A stretch of 64,000 nt of DNA. It comes from Polytrichum commune. Its lineage: Eukaryota > Streptophyta > Polytrichopsida > Polytrichales > Polytrichaceae. Positions 1,588 through 28,760 of this stretch are shown in pieces; positions within the stretch are counted from its first letter, which is position 1; the number at the start of each line of letters is the position of its first letter. Where the stretch lies: NCBI GenBank assembly GCA_950295325.1, contig OX485806.1:30690001-30754000 (forward strand), given 5' to 3'. The notes beneath the pieces were generated by a model, which saw nothing but the letters and a program-made list of their open reading frames with translations, was not told where the DNA came from and made no database searches. The position numbers and the translations under genes are program-made.

Positions 1588-2536
1588 CGAACCCTGCAAT
1601 TTGTTCTGTTGCATCCAACACCGAGAACCTGATCAGAGGCGGACTACGATATCATTCTCCAATTGAAGTTCACTGAGACTGTACACATAATTTCTGTTGC
1701 AACAAGAACTTAAGGTGACGTTGAGAAAGATCTACACTCTGTGCCGGGCTGCAGGTGTATATTAAACTTGCATCACAGTTCATGAATTTGGTTCTTGACG
1801 TTGATTGACATGATTCCATTAATCGATCCCAGTGTGTATTGCTTTGACTCGATCTAGCGTCATAATTGGTCATGACGATAAAAATCTGTTGGGATTCCTG
1901 CAGGTACCTGATAAGGAACTGCCCTGCTTGAGATCAAGGCCAACCAACCGCAAAGCTCCAAAACTTGTGCTGCGGCGCCGATTTTTTACGAGTCTTACGA
2001 AGCACGACGTTGAAACTGCAGCAACCTGAGATGGAAAATTGGGTATACTTGAAAACTTCTTTTAATTTTTAGAGATAGATCAAGCTGTCCATATTGTACG
2101 GCGGAACATACCCTGGATCACATTTCGGACAATGAATAAGCGTGACGTCAATACTGTTATGATCTCCAAATTATTCTGCACGCAAATGGTTGGTTCTATA
2201 TATGATCATTAGATATTCGACTATATATAGAGTCATACTTATGTTAATTTGTTCGCAGAACGACCCACAAGAGGGAATGGAACACGACATACCTGATCAT
2301 GAATACCAAAGTACCAACGTGAGCATCTCGGATCCATTGACAAGTTATAACTTGTATTCTGCACTTTTCATCTGTATCGAAACTTCCACCTACACCTAAT
2401 GAACATTGCATGAATAATGAATACCTGAGATAGAGGTGATTGACTAGTAGTACTGCAACGAAAACGTAGTATTGATGACCTTCCATGGGCCTTTCCCGAT
2501 ACAAAATTGGGAGCTAAAATGTTCTAGCAGTCTCGT

Positions 2537-2731
2537 ATTTCTAGAGGAGAATGCAGTGGCACAAACCACTTAATCACAGACGTCTACCAAATCACTGACA
2601 TCATGCACCAGCTATGGAGAGGATTCTTGCAAGGGAAATCATTTTCTTCTCTCATACCATTGTCGCAATCGTATGACAACTCATGGTTGGGTGGTTTGTG
2701 CGGCCACTACGTCATTCTCCTCTAGAATTTC
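2537..2731. mobile_element. MITE-like inverted-repeat element inside unit 1
   Basis: The two ends are inverted copies of each other: TTCTAGAGGAGAATG followed by a GTGG...CACAAACCAC block at the left, and the reverse complement at the right. A second full copy lies at about 22,270-22,465. Left-half relics lie near 15,835-15,890 and 26,735-26,790. It carries no coding capacity. Its presence in all units means it inserted before the units were duplicated. Confidence 0.55.
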
Positions 2732-2947
2732 AGGGTTATAAAAAATGTGCATCAACAATTTTTATGTATGTGTTCACCACCCCTTTCAATTGTACTGTAG
2801 AGATGATGCCACTAATTACAGGGCCCCTGTTAATTATATGTTTGCATCCAGGAAACCATCTCTATCTATGCTCCTGCCGTCTACAGAAACACAAGCACGA
2901 TGGAGGAACTCAAGGAGAAATTGGACGAAAAATATAGTAAGCCCACA

Positions 2948-3257
2948 ATGTCTCCCAAATTTGCATTCCTCATAAACTTCACTGCTCACGACTGTTTTTT
3001 CCATTGTGAGTCCACGGATGAGCGACAAATGCTCAAAACCATGTAATAAAAATTCCTGAATGAGATGCATGGTTATGGCCCTGTGCATCATGATGCATGC
3101 AGGGACTACGCAGTATACTTTCACGGTGGTGAATGACGATGCTGAAGATGTGATCTTAGTCCAATACTACCGAGATGAGGGAGATGATGAGATTGAACCG
3201 GACGATGTGCTGAAAATAGTGAAGGAACACTTTGATGACGATGCCCGTCTTTATTAG
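2948..3257 (+). CDS. small two-exon orphan gene, copy 1 (acidic C terminus)
   Basis: I do not recognise this family. Exon a is 2,948-3,005 and exon b 3,103-3,257, joined across a 97-nt intron with GTGAGT and ATGCAG ends. The phase closes exactly: one base is left from exon a and two open exon b. The product is about 70 aa. It starts MSPKFAFLINF and ends with a strongly acidic stretch containing VILVQYY and IVKEHFDDDARLY. An upstream in-frame ATG at 2,900 would give about 86 aa. Copy 2 at 25.2 kb keeps the same start, intron position, phase and stop region, and differs by whole-codon indels in the acidic part, which suggests protein-level selection. No signal peptide or membrane segment is obvious. 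Further 5' exons toward the TATA at 1,581 are possible. Function is unknown. Confidence 0.4.
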
Positions 3258-6834: not shown

Positions 6835-8860
6835 CAGTCTAACCTTGATAATGTCACCCTTGTTAATGGGACACCTTGATACTGTCACCTAAAAGTTTGA
6901 AACCGATTTTCTTAGTGTAAAACTCCCTCGTTATTATCCCTATCACCCTTGTTAATGTCACTATTTTTTTCCAAAATCCGTAGTGTAAATGTGATAATAT
7001 CAAATATGGATGGATTGTATGTGATGGTTGGATGGACATATTGTAGTAGCCAAAAGGGTCATGAGCCACCCCTGTGATAAATGCAATGTTATTCAAAGGG
7101 TCATGAGCCGCCTCTGTGCACCAACCCTGAACGGTGTTGTCTATACACGGCACTCAAAGGTGTTGTCTTTGACGGCGCTGCCAAGACTTCTTGGCCTCTA
7201 TGCACCCCACCTTCCGTCACATGTGTTCACCTATGTGTCTTTGAGGGTTTCAGCTTGTGTGAAGTAATTTAGGATGTTAAGTTCTACGGTTTAGCTGAGC
7301 TGGTACAGAGTAGTGTCGACTCAAGCTAAATTAGTTCAATTGGTTTGCAATGTAGAAATCTCAAGATATGTGGCACGGTCTTCACTGTTTCTATAGTCAA
7401 TAGTCGCATAGGAGAATCTAGTAAGATCCTGAAGACATCTTCAATTTTGATGAGACAGGTTTGTATTATAAAGCCTCTCCTTGCAAGACTTTGAATATTG
7501 GGAAGGCAAAAGGAAATAAAAAGAAGAAGGACCGTGTGACATTGGGGCTTTGCACTAATATCTCAGGGAAGGAGCGATTGAAGCTTGTTTTCATTCACAA
7601 ATCAACACGTCCCAGATGCTTTCCTCGGAAGTTTGATCTAAATAGTATAGTACATTATTATTCTAACAATTCAGCCTGGATGAATGGTGATGCTTTTACA
7701 CATTGGGTGAAGAGTGAGAACCGAAGAATGGCATTGCAAGATAGAAAAATTTGCATTATTATGGATAATGCAGGAAGCCATGATATTCATGGTGAGGTCA
7801 AAAAAGTTATAGATGGATTTAATGCTTTTGTACTCTCCCATATCACTATATTGTTTCTTCCACCAAATGTGACTTCAGTTGTTCAGCCTTTGGATCAAGG
7901 AGTGATTGCAGCATTCAAAATGTGCTATAAACGCAAGCTTGTTGCCTGGACTTTGCAACAAATTGATAACTCAAATGAAGATTTGGGGAAACTGAATGTT
8001 GATCTATTTCAAGCAATGCTATGGTGTGTGGCGGCATGGCATGAATTAGATGATCAAACCATTAGAAATTGTTGGAGAAAGTCTGCCATATTGCCTGCAG
8101 CGTGGAATGCAGATATCAACAATTCTGATGAACGTATGAAGTCCAAAATGGAGGAAGCAGCTTTGGAATTGGGCAATCTCATCGCCGCATTGAATTTGGG
8201 TTTGGATGTTGAAGGCAAGCCTATAGAAAAGCTTAGTCCTTTAGAGTACATAAACATGGAAGGTGAAGATGATTTTGAGGTGGAATATTCTACTGAGGAG
8301 CTTGTGCAATTAGTGCAAGATGGCGAACATGTACTTGATTCCATGGAAGAAGACCCATTGATTGTTAATAGCAATGATGATGAGTCTAAAGTAGTGAAGC
8401 TAAGCGATGCACAAAAATATGCTAAAGATGTTTTGAATTTTATGGCTAGCCAAGGTTCTCAGATTTTCAACACTCATGAGTTGTTAGGAATGGAAAACAT
8501 CCATGACAAACTCATTAGAATTGGTGTTGGACATTTAACATCACTAAAACAATGTGACATTAGAAGCTTCTTTGTCTCTAGTGAGAGGTCTTTACCTGAT
8601 CTCAATGACACATTGTGATGTGCTCATGTTGTTATTCACAATTTTGAATTATATTTTACATTCAAAAACATTGAAGTCTTGTGTTTGTTTTTTTTTTTTT
8701 TTTGACATTGTAATTTCATTTTGATTTTCTACCTTTTTTTTTTTGATAATATCACATTATGCACAAATCTTCAAAATGTGACATTATCAAATATGTCACA
8801 CCTTGTTTATATCACACTTTATGGTGAAACGGATGGTGTGATATTATCAAGGTTAGACTG
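6835..8860 (+). mobile_element. pogo/Tigger-type (Tc1/mariner superfamily) DNA transposon
   Basis: The ends are inverted repeats of about 23 bp beginning CAGTCTAACCTTGATAAT and differing by one base before they diverge. TA dinucleotides lie immediately outside at 6,833-6,834 and 8,861-8,862, the target duplication typical of this superfamily. Length is 2,026 bp. Subterminal repeats resembling the end (tgtgacattatcaa and variants) recur just inside both termini and may be transposase binding sites. The interior holds a DDE transposase frame on the plus strand. Near-identical ends and clean TA flanks suggest a fairly recent insertion. Confidence 0.88.
7426..8618 (+). pseudogene. Tigger/pogo-like DDE transposase, N terminus not found
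   Basis: This would cut and paste the surrounding element in the nucleus. The open frame covers the DDE endonuclease domain. The first acid is in FDETGL at 7,449, the second in IIMDNAGSHD at 7,764, and the third in VVQPLDQGVI at 7,893. A C-terminal acidic tail runs to the stop at 8,618. The first ATG lies after the first catalytic Asp, and a TAA lies in frame at 7,422. The usual N-terminal HTH/CENP-B DNA-binding domains are not recognisable between the left end and 7,422. An intron acceptor ending at 7,425 would fit the phase, so a spliced 5' exon is possible, but I cannot identify it. The entry is best read as 5'-defective. The catalytic half is surprisingly intact. Confidence 0.8.
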
Positions 8861-10339: not shown

Positions 10340-13300
10340 ATGAGTGATCTCAAGGAATTAAGCAATCTACAGAAGTACAATGGCAAAGAATACAATCTGT
10401 GGAAGTTCCAAGCTCAGGCCTATCTTGATGGCCGAAATTTTATGGGTATTGTCGACGGCACTGAGATTATGCCTGTTCTCCCATTTGCACAATCCTCCTC
10501 CACCCCAATTCCTGAGATACAATTTGGCAGAATTCTCTTCTCAGAGGTTACTTCAACTCCTGATGAGGGAATGTCACCTGCACAAAGAGAGGAAGTTCAG
10601 AATGCCATTCTTGAATTCAAGAAAAGGGATAAACAAGCCTTTTCTATTCTCATTCAGTTGGTTGATAAACCAATTCTTCACCAGATTATTAATTGCAAAA
10701 CTTCGAAGGAAATCTGGGATAAGCTAGCTCTTATTCACCAACGCACTGCTGTCTAGTCTCTGTACCAACTCCAGGAAAACTATTATAACCTGCGGCTAGG
10801 GGATAATGGCGATATGGCCACTTTCATCGGAGACCTTGAGATGATCAATAGTCAAATTGAGGAACTAGGCACCAGCCCCTTCTCTGAAGCGATGGTAATT
10901 TCTAAAATGCTGAGCAACTTGCCTGCAGCATATGACACCTTCCAAACTATGTGGAAGACAGTAGCTCCGGAGTAGCAGACTCTAACTCACCTGCAAACGT
11001 GGCTTCTCGATGAGGAACGCGTGATTCGGAAAAGACAGTCCGAGAACTCCATACACAATCACGCCTCAGCATTTTATTCTCGGAGTCAGCAATCTTATGG
11101 TGATTCGGGGCGCTACCGCTCTACTTTTCCGGCCAGAGGAAATCTCGGCGGCCACACACCAGATGGGAACAGAACCTCCCGTTCTTTTCCGCCACATGAG
11201 CACTATGATCCACGCTCCCAGCGTGCTCAAGAAATTGCTGCCCGCAAGCAGATTTCGCGTTGTGGAAACTGTGGCGAGCTCGGTCACTGGCACAAAGAGT
11301 GCCCCCGACCCCCGAGAAAACCGGTCACCAATCGCCCTGCTCTTGGTTCTTTTTCAACAGAACCACATCCTGCATCAGCACCCGGAGCCGCTTCTCCTTC
11401 ACAGGACTCTCGATACCCAGCAGGATTGTCTCATCCAACAATGACACCACCACGAGCATTCATGGCGCAACTTCTTGATCAAGAAGTACACTCCACAGAT
11501 TGGCTTGCAGATAGTGGCTCATCGCACCACATGTCTGACCAAAGATCTTGGTTCTCAAATTTCACTACCGTTCATCCTGGTACATGGCCAGTTCAGGCAG
11601 TGGGAGGACACACAACCTATGTGGAAGGAATCGGTGATATACATATTGAGATGAAAATCCGGAATCAGTGGGAGCGCGGTCTCCTCACCGACGTCATGTA
11701 TGTCCCTACACTTCAGAGAAACCTTTTCTCTGTCTCTTCGGCAGCATGCAAGAATGTCAATACTCTTTACACCAAGACTGGCTGCCAAATGCTTGTTGAT
11801 GGCATTGTGCTTATGGAGGGCTCCTTGGAAGGCATGTTATATAAACTCCATATCCGAGCACTCCTTCCACCCTCTCATGCAAATGTAATCAAGTCTATAG
11901 GGACTAGTACTAAGCTTGATGGGACCCGAAGCTTGGCAGTCTGGCACCAACGCCTCTGCCACCTTAACTATCCAACCATCCTCACAATGGTGCGAACCGA
12001 AGCAGTCACCGGAATGACTCTCCAAAATAAGTCTATTCCTGCATTCTGCCAGGGATGTGTTCTTGGCGAAAGCCACCGACACAGTTTCATTAGCTCCCCA
12101 ATTCGTACACCCTCTTCGGCACCTGGGCACCTAATTCATGCAGATCTCTGTGGACCTATGGCCCATGCTTCACTAGGAGGGGCCCTCTACTACATCCTCT
12201 TTAAGGATGATTATTCAGGGTACAGACATCTTTTCTGTATTTCTGAAAAGTCGGATGCCCTTCGGTGTCTACAGGATGTTTACAACAGTATTCTTCGAGA
12301 TACTGGCATGCACTTGCAGATCTTTCGAACGGATGGGGGAGGAGAGTTTATCAGCAAGAAGTTCCAGGAATACCTTTCTCAAAAAGGAATTCAACATGAA
12401 GTTACTGCTCCTTATGCACCAGAGCAGAATGGCTTCTGTGAGCGTGATAACCGCACTATTATGGAAAGCGTGCGTTCTCTTCTACACACAAGTGGGTTTC
12501 CTTTGAATTTTTGGGGAGAAGCCTGTCACACGGCTGTGTATACCTTAAATCGCACTGGTTCCCGCTTAATTCCAGGAAACACACCTTTCACCCTCTGGTA
12601 TGGATTCAAACCCTCCCTGGAACATCTCAAAATCTTTGGTTGCCATGCCTATGCCTACATTGAGAAGAAGCAGCGCACCAAACTAGGCCCTAAGAGTCAT
12701 CTTTGTTACTTCTTGGGCTACTGCGATCATACTAAAGGATACCGCCTCTGGGATCCGGTTACTTCTAAAGTGTTGATACGTCGTGATGTGGTCTTTAATG
12801 AGGAGCTCCTCTACGGCAGTCAGGTCGAACAGCCTTCTTCTGCTGATAATTTGTCACCTCTTGCTGTTTCTCTTACATATCCTGCAGATGACTTTTCTTC
12901 TTCTTCATCTTCTTCTTCCTCTGAGTTCCTCTCTCCTCATCATCCCTCTGAGCCCACCCCAACTCAATATCCTTCTGAGTTCGACTCTACTCATATGTCT
13001 GATATCTCTTCTCAATCGATTCTTGCTACAAGTTCTATTGTGCCTGCTCCTGTTGAGATTATTCACTGCTCTCCCCTCACACCACGAACACTTGTTTCCC
13101 ATCCAAATTATCAGCCAACAACTCCTGTTCGATTGCGCTCACTCGCCGAAATTGCCCCTTCTACTACTACTTCATCTTCCTCTGACACTCTTCCTACTAC
13201 TACTTCGTCTTCATCTGTTACCCCTCCTCCTTCACTCACTCAAGCTCACTTGAGTCATGCTATCTCTGATGCGTCAAATTTCGTTTCTCCTTCTCTCGCG

Positions 13301-14914
13301 TCCTCTGCCTACCATGTGCAATCCACAAACCCTATCTCTGCTGACACTTCTCCTGATGACCCTTTTTCTTACCTAGATGCTCTACACAGCCCTGATGCTG
13401 CTCAATGGGTGAAAGCCATGACAGAAGAGATTGATTCTCTTCGAGAAAATAAAACTTGGGAGTTGGTTCGCCTTCCCGACGGATGAAAAGCCATCCAGTG
13501 CAAGTGGGTATTCAAAACGAAATACCTTCCCAATGGAGATATTGATAAGTTTAAAGCACGCTTGGTCGCTAAAGGCTGCACTCAGAAAGCCGGCGTTGAT
13601 TACAACGAGACTTTTTCCCCTGTAGTCAAATTCGAAACAGTTCGAATCGTGATGGCTATCACTGCAGCTGGTGACCTCGAAATTGTACAATTCGACATCA
13701 AGACCGCTTTTCTAAATGGAGATATTGCAGAGCTTCTTTATATGGCGCAGCCTGAAGGTTTTGTTGACCTTAACCATCCAGACTATGTTTGTCTTCTCCA
13801 AAAAGCCCTCTACAGACTCAAACAATCCTCTCGCAATTGGAATACCAAATTTCATGCTTTTCTACTTCAATTTGGATTCAAAGTCAGTGACGCAGACCCC
13901 TGTGCCTACTACTCTTCCCAAGGCGGTCAAACCATTATCCTCCTTATCTATGTGGACGATGGGCTTATTTGTTTCTCAAAAGGCACCAACATTGATTTCA
14001 TCCTGAATTCCATGGACAAAGCCTTCTCCAACACCCGCGGCCCTGCTGGTTGTTATGTAGGATTGTGGATTACTCGTCACAAGGAGTCTCAAGAACTTTT
14101 CTTGGATCAAACACATTACCTTACAAAGTTGATTCGAAAGCTTGGATTTCTTGATGCAGTGCCCCTTTCAGTCCCCGCTGATCCACACACCCACCTTAGC
14201 TTTCTATCCTCTGATGATCCTTCTTCCACCTCACCTTTTCCCTATCAAACTATTGTGGGATGCCTTCAGTTTGCCTGCATCGGCACTCGACCTGATCTCT
14301 CCTATGCGGTGAGTATTGCCGCAAAGTACTGCTCTAACCCTACACCTGCCCATTGTGTTGCTCTTCGTCGTATCTTGAAGTACTTGGCAGGTACCCTCCA
14401 TCTCGGTCTCTCTTTTTTTGGTAACCATCAGCCCATCTCTCTCACTGCCTATTGTGACGCTGACTACGCCATGGACCTTGACAATCGGAAATCACGATCA
14501 GGTTTTGTTCTCTTTATCAATCATGGACCTGTTCTTTGGGCCTCAAGAAAGCAAGCTTGCTGCGCTTCGAGTACAACAGAAGCAGAATATCTTGTTGCTT
14601 CTGCAACCACTAAGGAGATCATCTGGCATCGGAGATTACTTAGTAGTCTTGGAAAACCCCCTGCTTCACCCACTCCTCTGTTCACTGACAACCAAAGTGC
14701 TCTGCGACTTATCAAGAACCCCGAATTCCACCGCCGGACCAAGCATATAGACGTTCAGTATCATGTGATTCGCGAAGCCTATCTTGCAGATCTTATTCTT
14801 CCCTCCTTCGTCTCTTCTCATGATCAGTTGGCGGACATCTTCACCAAAGCATTACCCAAAGATACCTTTCAACGATTACGCCATCACCTTGGCATATGCT
14901 CCGTTGAGCATTGA
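10340..14914 (+). pseudogene. Copia gag-pol polyprotein with three in-frame stops
   Basis: One reading frame runs from the ATG at 10,340 to the stop at 14,912-14,914, 1,524 codons, interrupted by TAG at 10,754, TAG at 10,973 and TGA at 13,484. There is no frameshift. Domains in order (codon numbers): Gag with a WKFQAQAYLDG-type N terminus; zinc knuckle CGNCGELGHWHKEC from about 308; aspartic protease DSGSS at about 391; integrase with the H-H-C-C region and FRTDGGGEF and EQNGFCER blocks; a serine-rich linker; reverse transcriptase with YVDD at 1204-1207; and RNase H with TEAEYLVAS. Each stop is one C-to-T change from a sense codon, and two are in CHG and one in CG context. The element is therefore probably non-autonomous now. 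Other frames are shadows. Confidence 0.95.
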
Positions 14915-22260: not shown

Positions 22261-22538
22261 TGTTCTAGCATTCTTTTATTTCTAGAGGAGAATGCAGTGG
22301 CACAAACCACTTCATCACAGACGTCTATCAAATCGCTGGCATCATGCACCAGCTATGAAGAGGGGGCTTGCAAGGGAAATCATTTTCTTCTCTCATACCA
22401 TTGTCGCAATCGTATGACAACTCATGGTTGGATGGTTTGTGCGGCCACTACGTCATTCTCCTCTAGAATTTCAGGGTTATAAAAAATGTGCATCAACAAT
22501 TTTTATGTATGTGTTCACCACCCCTTTCAATTTTACTG

Positions 22539-25110
22539 CACGGGGGGGTGACTATCGGAATTTTAGAAACCACGTGAGATAAAAAATAGGGTCAATTTAA
22601 TTCGTTGAGGGTAAAATTTATAACTTCGTTAGATCTACCATAGCTTTGGAAATATGTCCCATACATGATTATATATAAAATAGGGCAGTGAATAATTCCT
22701 CCATTTTAGTAATCAATAGAAAAAAAATAGGATTATAGATATTGGATCCCCCCAAATGTGTGTAGTAGAATCAATAGAATAATTATGGATTTGACTACTT
22801 GGATGAAGAATTGTGTAAATTCTGTCCAAATTTGAATGAAAAGTGTTAGTATGGAGGGAAAATGTTGTGGGTTTTTTGGGGGGAAGGAACATTGTGACTT
22901 CTCAACGGCCCTTGGGTTGGCTTAGGGTTTGGACAAGCATAGTGGCGTGAAGGCGGTGAAGCGTTTGGGTAGGAGGTCTTGCGTTGGTGAAGCGTGAAGG
23001 GGAGATGTCGAAGATGTTGAACTTGGAGGAGCCTCAAGTTAGCACTGCACTTTTCATAAATAAGGTAATACCTTTTGTTGAATATGATGGTCATAATATT
23101 TATAAGTCCACTTTAGTATCACAATTGAATGTTAATCATTTTTTGTCTAAGGATAGACTAACTAAAGTGAAAAATTCAATTTATTTTAATAATGCTGATG
23201 ATTACATCAATGCCTCATCTTCTACAGAAAAAATGTTGTTGGGTCTTGGGATGGATTGTGGAGTATATTTTATGCAGGGAAGTACGACAACTATCTCATC
23301 TACAGTTAAATCAGCTGTTAGGAGGACTAGGGGAAATCCTTCCAAAAATCTGCAACCTACATGTGTCCTCAATGGAGTTGACCGGGGCACATGGTGTATA
23401 AGACGAGTTCAAAAAATGAGACGAAAGGTAGGTACAAGGTGGGGAAGTTGCAGGCATCTTATTGATCTTCTTAATCGGGAGGTAAACAAAGGTAAAAAAA
23501 CAAATATTGTCGGATCTAGTTTTATAGTCTATCTTAATTATTTTAGAAAAGTCCCCGGACACTTTAAATTCAAATATGACCACTCAGATTCTATTTGGAT
23601 TGATGTAGATAGCATAATTTGCATAGTGACTATGTCATTTGATGTAGAGAGGGATGTCTTTGAGCTTGATCCGGTTGATGGGAACTCCTTGAATGAATTT
23701 GTTGAAAAGTCAACATGAAATTAATAGTGATGTAAGATATTGTTTGTTACTCCATATCCATATCACAAAATGACTAATGTTCTTTCTAGTGTACAAATCA
23801 TGCATGATTGTTATGGAATTTTTTTTCTAAGTTAGTAGGTGTTATTTAATCTATGAAATTCTCTTGCTTCATTCAAAGATGTCGTTTATCAATGAGCATT
23901 GGATGGTTGAAGTGATAAACATGAACTAAACTTTTCAAATGCATGAAGATGATGAGTTGATTTTCAATCCAATTTTGGAGGAAGCTAGGTATTATGCTTT
24001 CCTAAACCTTGAATTTGCACATTTTCTTGTTGTTTGGTCTTGTATAGATTTCCAAATAAACATATTCAATTCTCTAACTCAAAAACCTGGTTTTCAAGCC
24101 ATGAAATTATAAGAATTAAGATTGGAATGTAGTTCGTTCTTCATAAATTTTTGTTATTAGTTTTACTTGTCTTGCTAGTAGTGTCTAATATGCCAACATT
24201 CTATTCATTGCCTTTTTGCTACAACAACCTTTTGTAGATGATCGATGATGCGCTACAACATTTGGCACCTCACCATGGTAGACTCGGAGGATTGCGCTTT
24301 GCCTTGGAGGATACGTGATGGAGTGGTTGGAGACTTCGAAGGTTGCCCACCTTATGCCAATAATTAGTTTTAGTTATTTGTCATCATTGGTGTTAAACCT
24401 CTCCAAAACATTTTGTCTTATCATGACATTGTAGAGGATATCGATATGTACCTTGACATGTATCGGAGGGTGCATAGTTATATCCTAACCCTTCACATTG
24501 TAAATATTTGGTACAAGGTTGAATGTGTTTGTGAACACAATTAAAGTAAATGTTTTTAATTTTTGTATTTGGTTTTTTCAATTGAATGCAATCTTTTGTT
24601 TTGGAGTAGATAATTATGCAAAATTTCATGTCTTATGACAATTGCTTATAATTCTTGTTTTGTTCTATCCGTGTTTACAACTTGTCTATGTTAGCTTGTA
24701 CATTTTGTTATCTTCATGTTCATTGGTAATCTTTTAACTAAATTCCAAGTGTTATTGGTTGTGTTTTGAATGGCATTTTGAATGCTTTAGCATTGGTATA
24801 ACTAATTGAAACCGATTAAATGATAAGATGGATGGTGTGGAACGTTTGTTGCTCACATAGTTGATTTTGCAATGCTATAATATTCCGTTCATTATTTGGT
24901 ACTTGTACGATTTATAAAAAAATATGATGCCAAAAATTGGTCTCTCTAAAAATTTACAAATAAACATAGGGTGCTTAAAAATATGTCAAAGTAACTTTAT
25001 ATCTACAAATAGGGAGGGAAAAAATACCGAGAGGTGCATAAATACCCCCCCATTAAATACCCCATTATCGCACGTGGTTACAAAATGTAAGGGGGTGTGA
25101 CCCCCCCGTG
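22539..25110 (+). mobile_element. Unclassified TIR DNA transposon with 8-bp target duplication
   Basis: The ends are inverted: CACGGGGGGGTGAC at the left, and the reverse complement of CACGGGGGGGTCAC at the right. A second shared inverted block AACCACGTG(A/C)GATAA lies within the first 50 bp of each side. TTTTACTG is directly repeated at 22,531-22,538 and 25,111-25,118. Unit 1 (about 2,787-2,802) carries the uninterrupted target, with one base difference. Length is 2,572 bp. It encodes one recognisable long frame (23,005-23,718) that I cannot place in a transposase family. An 8-bp duplication fits hAT, KDZ or other groups, but the C-A-C-G7 ends are not the usual hAT form. Confidence 0.85.
23005..23718 (+). 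CDS. Orphan protein of the unclassified DNA transposon
   Basis: I do not recognise the function. From the ATG at 23,005 the frame gives 237 aa; near-cognate codons extend it to 22,984. The body begins with a VEYDGHNIYKSTLVSQLN-type segment followed by LSKDRLTKVKNSIYFNN, then a serine/threonine stretch, a basic segment (SAVRRTRGNP, RRVQKMRRKVGTRWG) and a C-terminal half with YFRKVPGHFKFKYDHSDS. There is no evident DDE triad, HTH or zinc finger. The YDG-x-x-YKSTLVSQLN opening has the feel of a small beta-barrel binding module, but this is only an impression. The first roughly 15 codons may be an upstream exon, because GTAATA follows an AAG near 23,062. Its position between the TIRs ties it to the element. 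Confidence 0.55.
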   Translation: MSKMLNLEEPQVSTALFINKVIPFVEYDGHNIYKSTLVSQLNVNHFLSKDRLTKVKNSIYFNNADDYINASSSTEKMLLGLGMDCGVYFMQGSTTTISSTVKSAVRRTRGNPSKNLQPTCVLNGVDRGTWCIRRVQKMRRKVGTRWGSCRHLIDLLNREVNKGKKTNIVGSSFIVYLNYFRKVPGHFKFKYDHSDSIWIDVDSIICIVTMSFDVERDVFELDPVDGNSLNEFVEKST

Positions 25111-25248
25111 TTTTACTGTAGAGATGATGCCACTAATTACAGGGCCCCTGTTAATTATATGTTTGCATCCAGGAAACCATCTCTATCTATGCTCCTGCCG
25201 TCGACGGAAACACAAGCACGATGGAGCAACTCAAGGAGAAATTGAACA

Positions 25249-27264: not shown

Positions 27265-28760
27265 TAACCCAAGGAGATTTTTGTGCATAATCGGTCAAGT
27301 TCCTAGTGCATGGCCCTTTGAAGCATGCTTGGATGTTGATTGAGAGACCTATTTAAGTCATCTTGATATTTTCCGTTTACCACCCTTGTAGTTCCGCTAA
27401 GGTCCGAGGTGACTAGTATGCAATATTTTAGAGGTTGTACAAGATTGCTTGGTTTTGGAAGTGCAGAAAGTGCTATCCTTGACAGAAAGTGAACAAGAAG
27501 GTGACAACGTCAACAACCACATGAATTTGTTTTTTTGTAAAGCTCACCTTTCTTGGAACAAAGACTTGGAGAGATTTGGTAGGTTAGGGTTTAAGCCATT
27601 TGTTCAGCTCATACCAGTGTCCGGGGAGATTTTTGTGTATAATCAGTCAAGATCCTACTGTATCCAAGTCCAACCAGTTACATGTTGTGATCTTTCGGTT
27701 TTTCTTCATCAAATTGAGGGTTATTCTATAGAGTCCTCTACAATGATCAGTAATTTTCTTGAAGTCTTGAACTTCATCTTGTTATTACTCAAATTTAACT
27801 GGTTCATCTGTAACTAAGTGGTTGGTTCTTCCCATTTATTGGCTCATACTCAGGTTCATGGTGATGTAGTTTTGTTTTTCTTGTTCCGAGTACATCAATT
27901 GATGTTATAGTGAAGTTAAGATCTGGTTTGGTGTTTTGTGCTTAGGTTGAGAGCTTACTCCATTTGAGTATGTGTGCAAGGTAGTTCATGTGTAACTAGC
28001 GGTGCCTTTCAGCATGTGTGCAGGATATTTTTGGGCATATCTTGGTGTTTCCAAGTCCAATCAGTTGAATGTTGTAATCTTTCGGTTTTTCTTTATTCAT
28101 TTGGGATATACTCCATAGATTCCTCTACATTGATTGTTGAAGTGTTGAACATCAACCAGTTACTTTTGAAACTCAACTACATTAGTTCATGTGTAACTAG
28201 TGGTGCCTTTGAGCCTGTGTGCGGGAGATTTTTGGGCATATCATGGCACTATCTGCATCCCATGTATGGAATGATCAAGTTCAGCAGTGCTCCATAATGT
28301 CACACTACACTAATTTCCATGTTATCATGCATCCATGTCAACACTACAAACCTCCTCATATCACATGCACTTTGGTTGCCACATGTGTGATATTAGAGAA
28401 GTGAGAGTGTACATAGTGGTCTCATGCATGTATGCAGCAATTTTTGAAACTTCAAAGGAAATCACCACTCAAGACACCCAAACTTCGTAGGACACTGTAC
28501 CAAGCATGAGAAACTTAATTGAATGAGGGACCGAGTTCCATTGTATAAGCAACAGTCAAGAATGTAAAATATTATTTGGATATGAAAGGGAGACCTCACT
28601 TATGATAGAAATGAATCCAGAAACACTGAAAGTAGATTTGTAGTTTCATATGCCAGTCTTGTGTCTAAATTTCAAGTTTTGACAAACGCCAACTAATCAC
28701 AGTGAAGGACCAGAAGAATGTCTTATTGATCAAGATGGCAGACATAGTGTACTAGACAAA
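27265..28760. repeat. Duplicated block R, copy in unit 3, with MITE T fragment
   Basis: This is collinear with 21,200-22,260, with extra sequence. Two similar sub-blocks ('ggttgagag', 'gtgcggga', 'ttttgggcatat') occur at 27,945-28,050 and 28,175-28,270. The MITE T end lies at about 28,285-28,409, followed by TA. The 122-aa and 107-aa open frames here have no recognisable domain and are not conserved in the sister copy. Confidence 0.5.

Follow-up and report, generated by a model that had tools for sequence, protein, structure and literature searches.

The 2,572-bp element at positions 22539-25110 of the window (the whole 64,000-nucleotide stretch of Polytrichum commune DNA that was analysed) is probably an internally deleted, non-autonomous member of a divergent P-like family of cut-and-paste transposons in a land plant. 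The only coding part left in it corresponds to the ~230-aa C-terminal domain of an ~1,500-aa protein, which is encoded in the same genome by full-length relatives of 5.8-8.3 kb with ends of the same kind. Membership of this family in P proper is unproven, as judged from its sequences, because the profile and THAP tests fail.

Borders, ends and target site of the element

The features of the element and of its target site are as follows; L numbers denote loci in the genome assembly.

22539-25110, + strand: non-autonomous element, 2,572 bp
22531-22538, strand not assigned: 5' target-site duplication (TSD) TTTTACTG, perfect 8 bp
25111-25118, strand not assigned: 3' TSD TTTTACTG, perfect 8 bp
22539-22552, + strand: 5' terminal inverted repeat (TIR) CACGGGGGGGTGAC, 14 bp
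25097-25110, - strand: 3' TIR GTGACCCCCCCGTG, 14 bp
22562-22582, + strand: 5' subterminal inverted block, with CACGTG at 22571-22576, the start of which is base 33 of the element
25065-25085, - strand: 3' subterminal inverted block, with CACGTG at 25071-25076
22583-23004, + strand: non-coding 5' part; in L011, a section of the transposase core is preceded by the same ~315 bp with which the element starts
23005-23718, + strand: 237-aa ORF, the C-terminal domain of an ~1,500-aa protein; similarity to L006 starts at 23005
23719-25064, + strand: 3' non-coding part, common to L006 and L016, both of which have core coding sequence
2520-3244, + strand: empty paralogous site, with the target TTGTACTG at 2790-2797

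An earlier note, made from the letters of the sequence, had described a DNA transposon with exactly these outer borders, and they are confirmed by the inverted ends, the perfect 8-bp TSD and the empty site. The TIRs, CACGGGGGGGTGAC and GTGACCCCCCCGTG, are complementary over 93% of 14 bp, and the second inverted block described there is also present at 22562-22582 and 25065-25085, its two arms being 86% complementary over 21 bp. The 8-bp duplication is perfect, as had been read, with TTTTACTG on both sides. The uninterrupted paralogous target that had been placed at about 2,790 was recovered as well: when the flanks of the element are joined with one TSD removed, they give an 85% match to 2520-3244 through the insertion site, and the target there, TTGTACTG, is one base off the TSD of the element. 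These flanks recur within the window, at 2520-3244 (85%) and at 28630-28755 (93%), and the insertion of the element therefore sits in repeated DNA.

The terminal G runs, which were compared in the ends of L001, L009, L012, L013 and the window element, are 6 to 15 long and vary both among copies and between the two ends of one copy. This variation may be due either to slippage or to assembly error.

Copies and deletion derivatives

The genome searched was an assembly of 408 Mb in 64 contigs, seven large ones of which contain nearly all of the sequence. The LEAFY DNA-binding domain has matches there in six pieces, spread over three places, which marks the genome as that of a land plant; the domain has a histidine at a position where aspartate is expected in mosses. 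L012 and L013 are copies that match the window element over its full length at 97-98% identity, with TSDs of TTTGTTTA and GGACAAAG, respectively. A search with the first 322 bp of the element gave 719 rough first-look candidates; 40 of these were scored, and in every one the match starts at element base 1 or 4. Ten copies with the ends of the window element were sampled (nine derivatives of ~1.6 kb and one of 2.2 kb); all of them are without the ORF region, and all have an 8-bp TSD, which is perfect in eight and has one mismatch in two. Eight of these TSD pairs were parsed by script (seven perfect, one with one mismatch), and the other two were read by eye (one perfect, one with one mismatch).

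Over element bases 467-2569, the window element shares 97.8% identity with L010+L006, its nearest relative with coding sequence 5' of the domain. Upstream of base 467 this relative runs on as transposase core, split over several frames; at that place the window element has its own 5' non-coding end. Another derivative, L011, has the same first 315 bp fused to a later part of the core. The upstream core of L010+L006 and the alternative junction of L011 together indicate that the window element arose by internal deletion, with position 23005 as the deletion junction in these alignments. The earlier proposal of a non-autonomous element is therefore upheld, in the form of an internally deleted copy that has kept only the C-terminal coding part. 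No intact full-length element with exactly the two ends of the window element was found in the genome search; in the nearest candidates, L010+L006 and L016, neither the 5' end nor the frame is preserved.

A derivative type of 1.5 kb carries a 267-aa frame of the same C-terminal domain. The TSDs of 22 copies of this type, which were picked from the table of genome matches to the 237-aa protein, are perfect in 15 and have one mismatch in one, and in the other six the ends were not parsed by the script.

At three loci, L013 (around 150-215), L001 (reverse strand, 1-80) and L021, one family member adjoins, or lies within, the end or body of a second member.

The 237-aa ORF

The protein of about 237 aa listed in the earlier note is encoded by a real ORF, at 23005-23718, but its description as an orphan does not hold, as it has at least 151 matches in the genome (150 were scored of 1,622 first-look candidates) and is the C-terminal piece of an ~1,500-aa protein. 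Frames of about 1,500 aa are among these matches, at 48-53% identity, and frames ending in this domain are found at L001 (1,543 aa), L002 (1,549 aa), L003 (1,502 aa) and L017 (1,497 aa). A family search of the protein had been proposed, and with the 237 aa alone it gave no match to a catalogued family above noise, the one weak match having an E of 0.14. A single-sequence AlphaFold prediction of the window protein was uninformative (mean pLDDT 28.4).

The lack of a family match for the 237 aa alone would suit an unrelated passenger gene, as in the earlier suggestion that the element carries an accessory protein. This reading was rejected and keeps practically no probability, being refuted by the genome matches and by the identity that the 237 aa share with the C-terminal parts of four large proteins and the 1.5-kb type (47-52%), of L018 (27%) and of L006 (93%). 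The ORF is instead the C-terminal remnant of the large protein.

Nonsynonymous changes outnumber synonymous ones when the window ORF is compared with L012 (3 synonymous, 14 nonsynonymous), L013 (4 and 8) and L006 (3 and 16); against L011 there are 28 changes, 11 of them synonymous and 17 nonsynonymous, and 13 fall at third positions. L012, L013 and L011 have deletions within the frame of the ORF, and those of L012 and L013 are frame-breaking. The window ORF thus appears to drift about neutrally, with little constraint. Among the 22 copies of the 1.5-kb type, changes in the 267-aa frame by codon position number 81/88/85, with 58 synonymous and 183 nonsynonymous (N/S 3.16 versus 2.63 expected), 13 nonsense changes versus 13.3 expected and seven frameshifts. 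Thirteen of the 22 copies are disabled, and the coding rate is 0.0144 versus a non-coding rate of 0.0104. On these counts, the 267-aa frame is drifting neutrally.

Two derivatives, the 2.57-kb window type and the 1.5-kb type with its 267-aa frame, nevertheless keep just this domain, which would be consistent with the window ORF being a working trans-acting repressor, kept because a truncated transposase poisons the full-length enzyme. The counts against L011 also make a little constraint possible on that longer branch. However, such a repressor is very improbable given the neutral-like figures and the disabled copies of the 1.5-kb type, the synonymous and nonsynonymous counts of the window ORF against L012, L013 and L006, and the broken frames of L012 and L013. 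Furthermore, TSDs flank each of the ten sampled copies of ~1.6-2.2 kb that have these ends, none of the ten has the ORF region, and the part retained in the window element is the C-terminus. The ORF of the window element would rather be a relic.

Full-length family in the genome

A query of the genome with the core gave at least 101 matches (95 of 238 candidates were scored), and at least nine loci have frames of 1,493-1,549 aa that are stop-free within the match. In the main subfamilies the full-length elements have one uninterrupted ~1,500-aa frame, and the protein consists of an N-terminal part with Cys/His clusters (identified by eye), a ~700-aa core and the ~230-aa C-terminal domain. The alternative that the earlier note had raised, a transposase group not obvious by eye, is supported for these longer relatives, which encode the ~1,500-aa transposase.

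Perfect 8-bp TSDs were found for L001 (6,880 bp, 1,543-aa frame; TGCCACCC), L009 (7,004 bp; GGGATGGC), L018 (6,034 bp; CTCAGCTC) and L019 (5,800 bp; GTAACGAG), and L017 (8,315 bp, 1,497-aa frame) has a TSD with one mismatch. Two sister copies of L009, which are 98-99% identical over the compared 5' parts, have perfect TSDs of ATTTCAAC and ACCCCATC. L018 and L019 form a divergent subfamily with 32% core identity to L003, in which the coding part is in two frames. An extra frame lies upstream of the core frame in both (414 aa in L018, 367 aa in L019) and is possibly another exon or a second protein. L021 is nested in a window-type copy, with a perfect 8-bp TSD (CTCCATAC), and the window sequence represents its uninterrupted site; one end of L021, the 3' end, is CCCTGGGAG instead of CCCGGGGAG.

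The ends read C[A/C/T]CGGGG save for the 3' end of L021. A scan of 18 loci gave ends for 11 of them (ten with perfect TSDs and one with one mismatch), and seven loci with ends expected or sought yielded none in that scan (L002, L003, L011, L014, L015, L016 and L020); the ends of L021 were found separately. When nine elements were compared, two of which (L022 and L023) are copies of one type, all 18 ends were seen to start with C, and ACGTG is located 33-41 bp inward at 9 of the 18. It is absent at both ends of L001, L018 and L019, and at the 5' end of L009 and the 3' ends of L021 and L022. As ACGTG recurs at this position, ACGTG/CACGTG is more likely to be a transposase site than a host E-box. 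The palindrome CACGTG had been proposed as a site for either a host factor or the transposase, and it is the second of these that this recurrent position favours as a possibility.

Transposase core and its likeness to P

An alignment of ten members of the core contains the invariant or near-invariant motifs EDET (D167), SDGD (D286), QDxxHxGKKLxNP (D333) and GSDxCExFFS (E528), with D-x-x-H invariant across the alignment. The P signature is given in PMC8230255 as a D, D, E triad with [C/D](2)H after the second D. The triad and the D-x-x-H of the core agree with this published string, but under the full profile the D(2)H block is placed at 355 of P rather than at D339.

The core was compared with P (DmTNP) and Hermes by ordered block scans, which carried no information on the catalytic positions of P; the blocks were selected post hoc, after the likeness to P had been noticed. 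With four blocks, three fall on D230, D303 and E531, and the score of 65.7 was reached by 0/600 shuffles and 0/300 natural decoys (maximum 58.0). The four-block score for Hermes was 40.6, which 112 of 600 shuffles reached, and only position 572 was matched. Six blocks gave 94.5 for P (z 6.55, 0/400 shuffles; maximum 74.6 in 200 natural decoys), with D444 of the GTP pocket also recovered, versus 56.0 for Hermes (28/400 shuffles). With five blocks P scored 76.0 (0/400 shuffles) and Hermes 54.6 (6/400), the latter being above chance as well.

Taken singly, the D444 block scores 13.3 at 444 versus 5.9 at the next-best place. The best place in P for the D2 block on its own is 60, with 303 ranking third, and for the D3 block it is 216, with 355 second and 339 not best. 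A profile made from L018 and L019 only places the D(2)H block at 339 and misses D230; its score is reached by 14 of 200 shuffles, and Hermes (68.5) is almost level with P (72.0). The spacing from D(2)H to E is 195 residues in the core versus 192 in P, and D525 of the core lies three residues before E528, as D528 does before E531 in P. Both D444 and D528 contact GTP in P (PMC7776569).

Alignment of the core by hhalign was not significant either with P (0.51, 0.37) or with Hermes (0.47, 0.28), the latter being marginally better. The large protein had no significant Pfam or PDB match by HMMER; what sequence searches of Pfam, PHROGs and PDB turned up for it and for the window protein was weak and no better than chance. 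The GTP-binding domain of P (PF21788) had no match in the genome, in a search that matched no control either. Pfam detected no THAP domain in the whole frames of L001 and L002 or in two L005 pieces, and no P domain in the large protein or the core. The hAT Pfam domain is absent in 10/10 core members, and the Pfam models of the KDZ catalytic domain and its CxC modules gave no match in 10/10 at E<=10, a search in which the HMMER filters drop most weak matches. They had none either in the frames of L001 and L002 and the two L005 pieces. Scans of phage, viral-contig and prokaryote-genome sequences found no relative.

The absence of a significant sequence-profile match to any family searched would fit a new DDE superfamily, related to P only by a common RNase H core. 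This is considered rather unlikely, as three catalytic residues and one GTP-pocket residue of P are recovered in order, and the P-like reading is preferred.

The earlier note had suggested hAT and KDZ as alternatives from the 8-bp duplication. The full-length elements could be a very divergent hAT lineage, with the window element as a Ds-like deletion derivative. Transposons of the hAT type (Hermes, Ac) likewise make 8-bp TSDs, and the family shares with them the context of the E motif and a large D2-to-E distance; hhalign and the block scans both put the E block at Hermes position 572 (SAASERTFS), and only 6/400 shuffles score as high as Hermes does with five blocks. However, the first two acidic blocks are not recovered in Hermes, the remaining blocks missing the positions that we take to be its catalytic D180 and D248, and with four and with six blocks Hermes is reached by 112/600 and 28/400 shuffles, whereas P is reached by none. 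With the hAT Pfam domain also lacking in the ten core members searched, a hAT lineage is decidedly unlikely. hAT can stand as a possible cousin, but in the block scans the P-element transposase gives the better fit. One clade of RNase H-like proteins takes in both the P and the hAT transposases (PMC3985635), a point in favour of the hAT reading. The family resembles KDZ elements (Kyakuja, Dileera, Zisupton) in its large protein and, going by the earlier note, in the 8-bp TSD, but the Pfam matches include no KDZ model and this alternative was not supported.

Comparison with P elements and proposed mechanism

The TIRs, subterminal repeats and TSDs measure 31, 11 and 8 bp in the P element and 13, 12 and 8 bp in the zebrafish P-like element, and both kinds also have internally deleted copies (PMC7776569). 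The family reported here is like the P superfamily (including the zebrafish element, human THAP9 and Galileo) in its 8-bp TSD, its TIR with a subterminal inverted repeat, its internally deleted copies and, apparently, the order and context of D230, D303 and E531, and the D-x-x-H, D444 and D528. It is unlike P in having no THAP or P domain by Pfam and no significant profile match, a transposase of roughly double the length, in which the N-terminal part is rich in Cys and His and a C-terminal domain is added, G-rich ends and a land-plant host. A THAP domain at the N-terminus is typical of the P superfamily, yet not universal.

As far as this sequence evidence goes, the family works like the P element. 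The core would be a split RNase H nuclease of the P-element type with a GTP-binding insertion; it would bind the subterminal ACGTG block, pair the ends and excise the element, and would then join it to the two target strands with an 8-bp stagger. A full-length relative would have mobilised the window copy in trans.

A broader reading is put forward tentatively, as somewhat short of probable: the ~1,500-aa protein may be the founding member of an undescribed lineage at the level of a superfamily, in which P-type, GTP-dependent transposases of land plants form a bridge between P and hAT; its marks would be CNCGGGG ends, subterminal ACGTG as a recurrent site and a C-terminal domain unmatched by the families searched. 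The table of a 2022 review gives six TIR superfamilies for land plants, namely Tc1-Mariner, hAT, Sola, MuDR-Foldback, PIF-Harbinger and CACTA, and thus does not list P (PMC9033089). One plant genome is stated to be without the P superfamily (PMC11939994). In the open-licence PMC literature on P-like or new DNA-transposon lineages in land plants, the family is undescribed in the excerpts of the matches listed. If the family is P-like, it would extend the P type to plants, here with at least nine loci with ~1,500-aa frames, sister copies that are almost identical and short derivatives of several types. It would also make the generality of GTP use across the P type testable, and would account for repeats left unnamed by the profile libraries searched.

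Other features in the window

A 397-aa frame at 7425-8615 has a strong DDE_1 match (E 4e-36) and is presumably of the pogo/Tigger type. Pieces of a Copia-type retroelement (an integrase part and RVT_2) are located at 10976-14911, in two frames divided by a stop.
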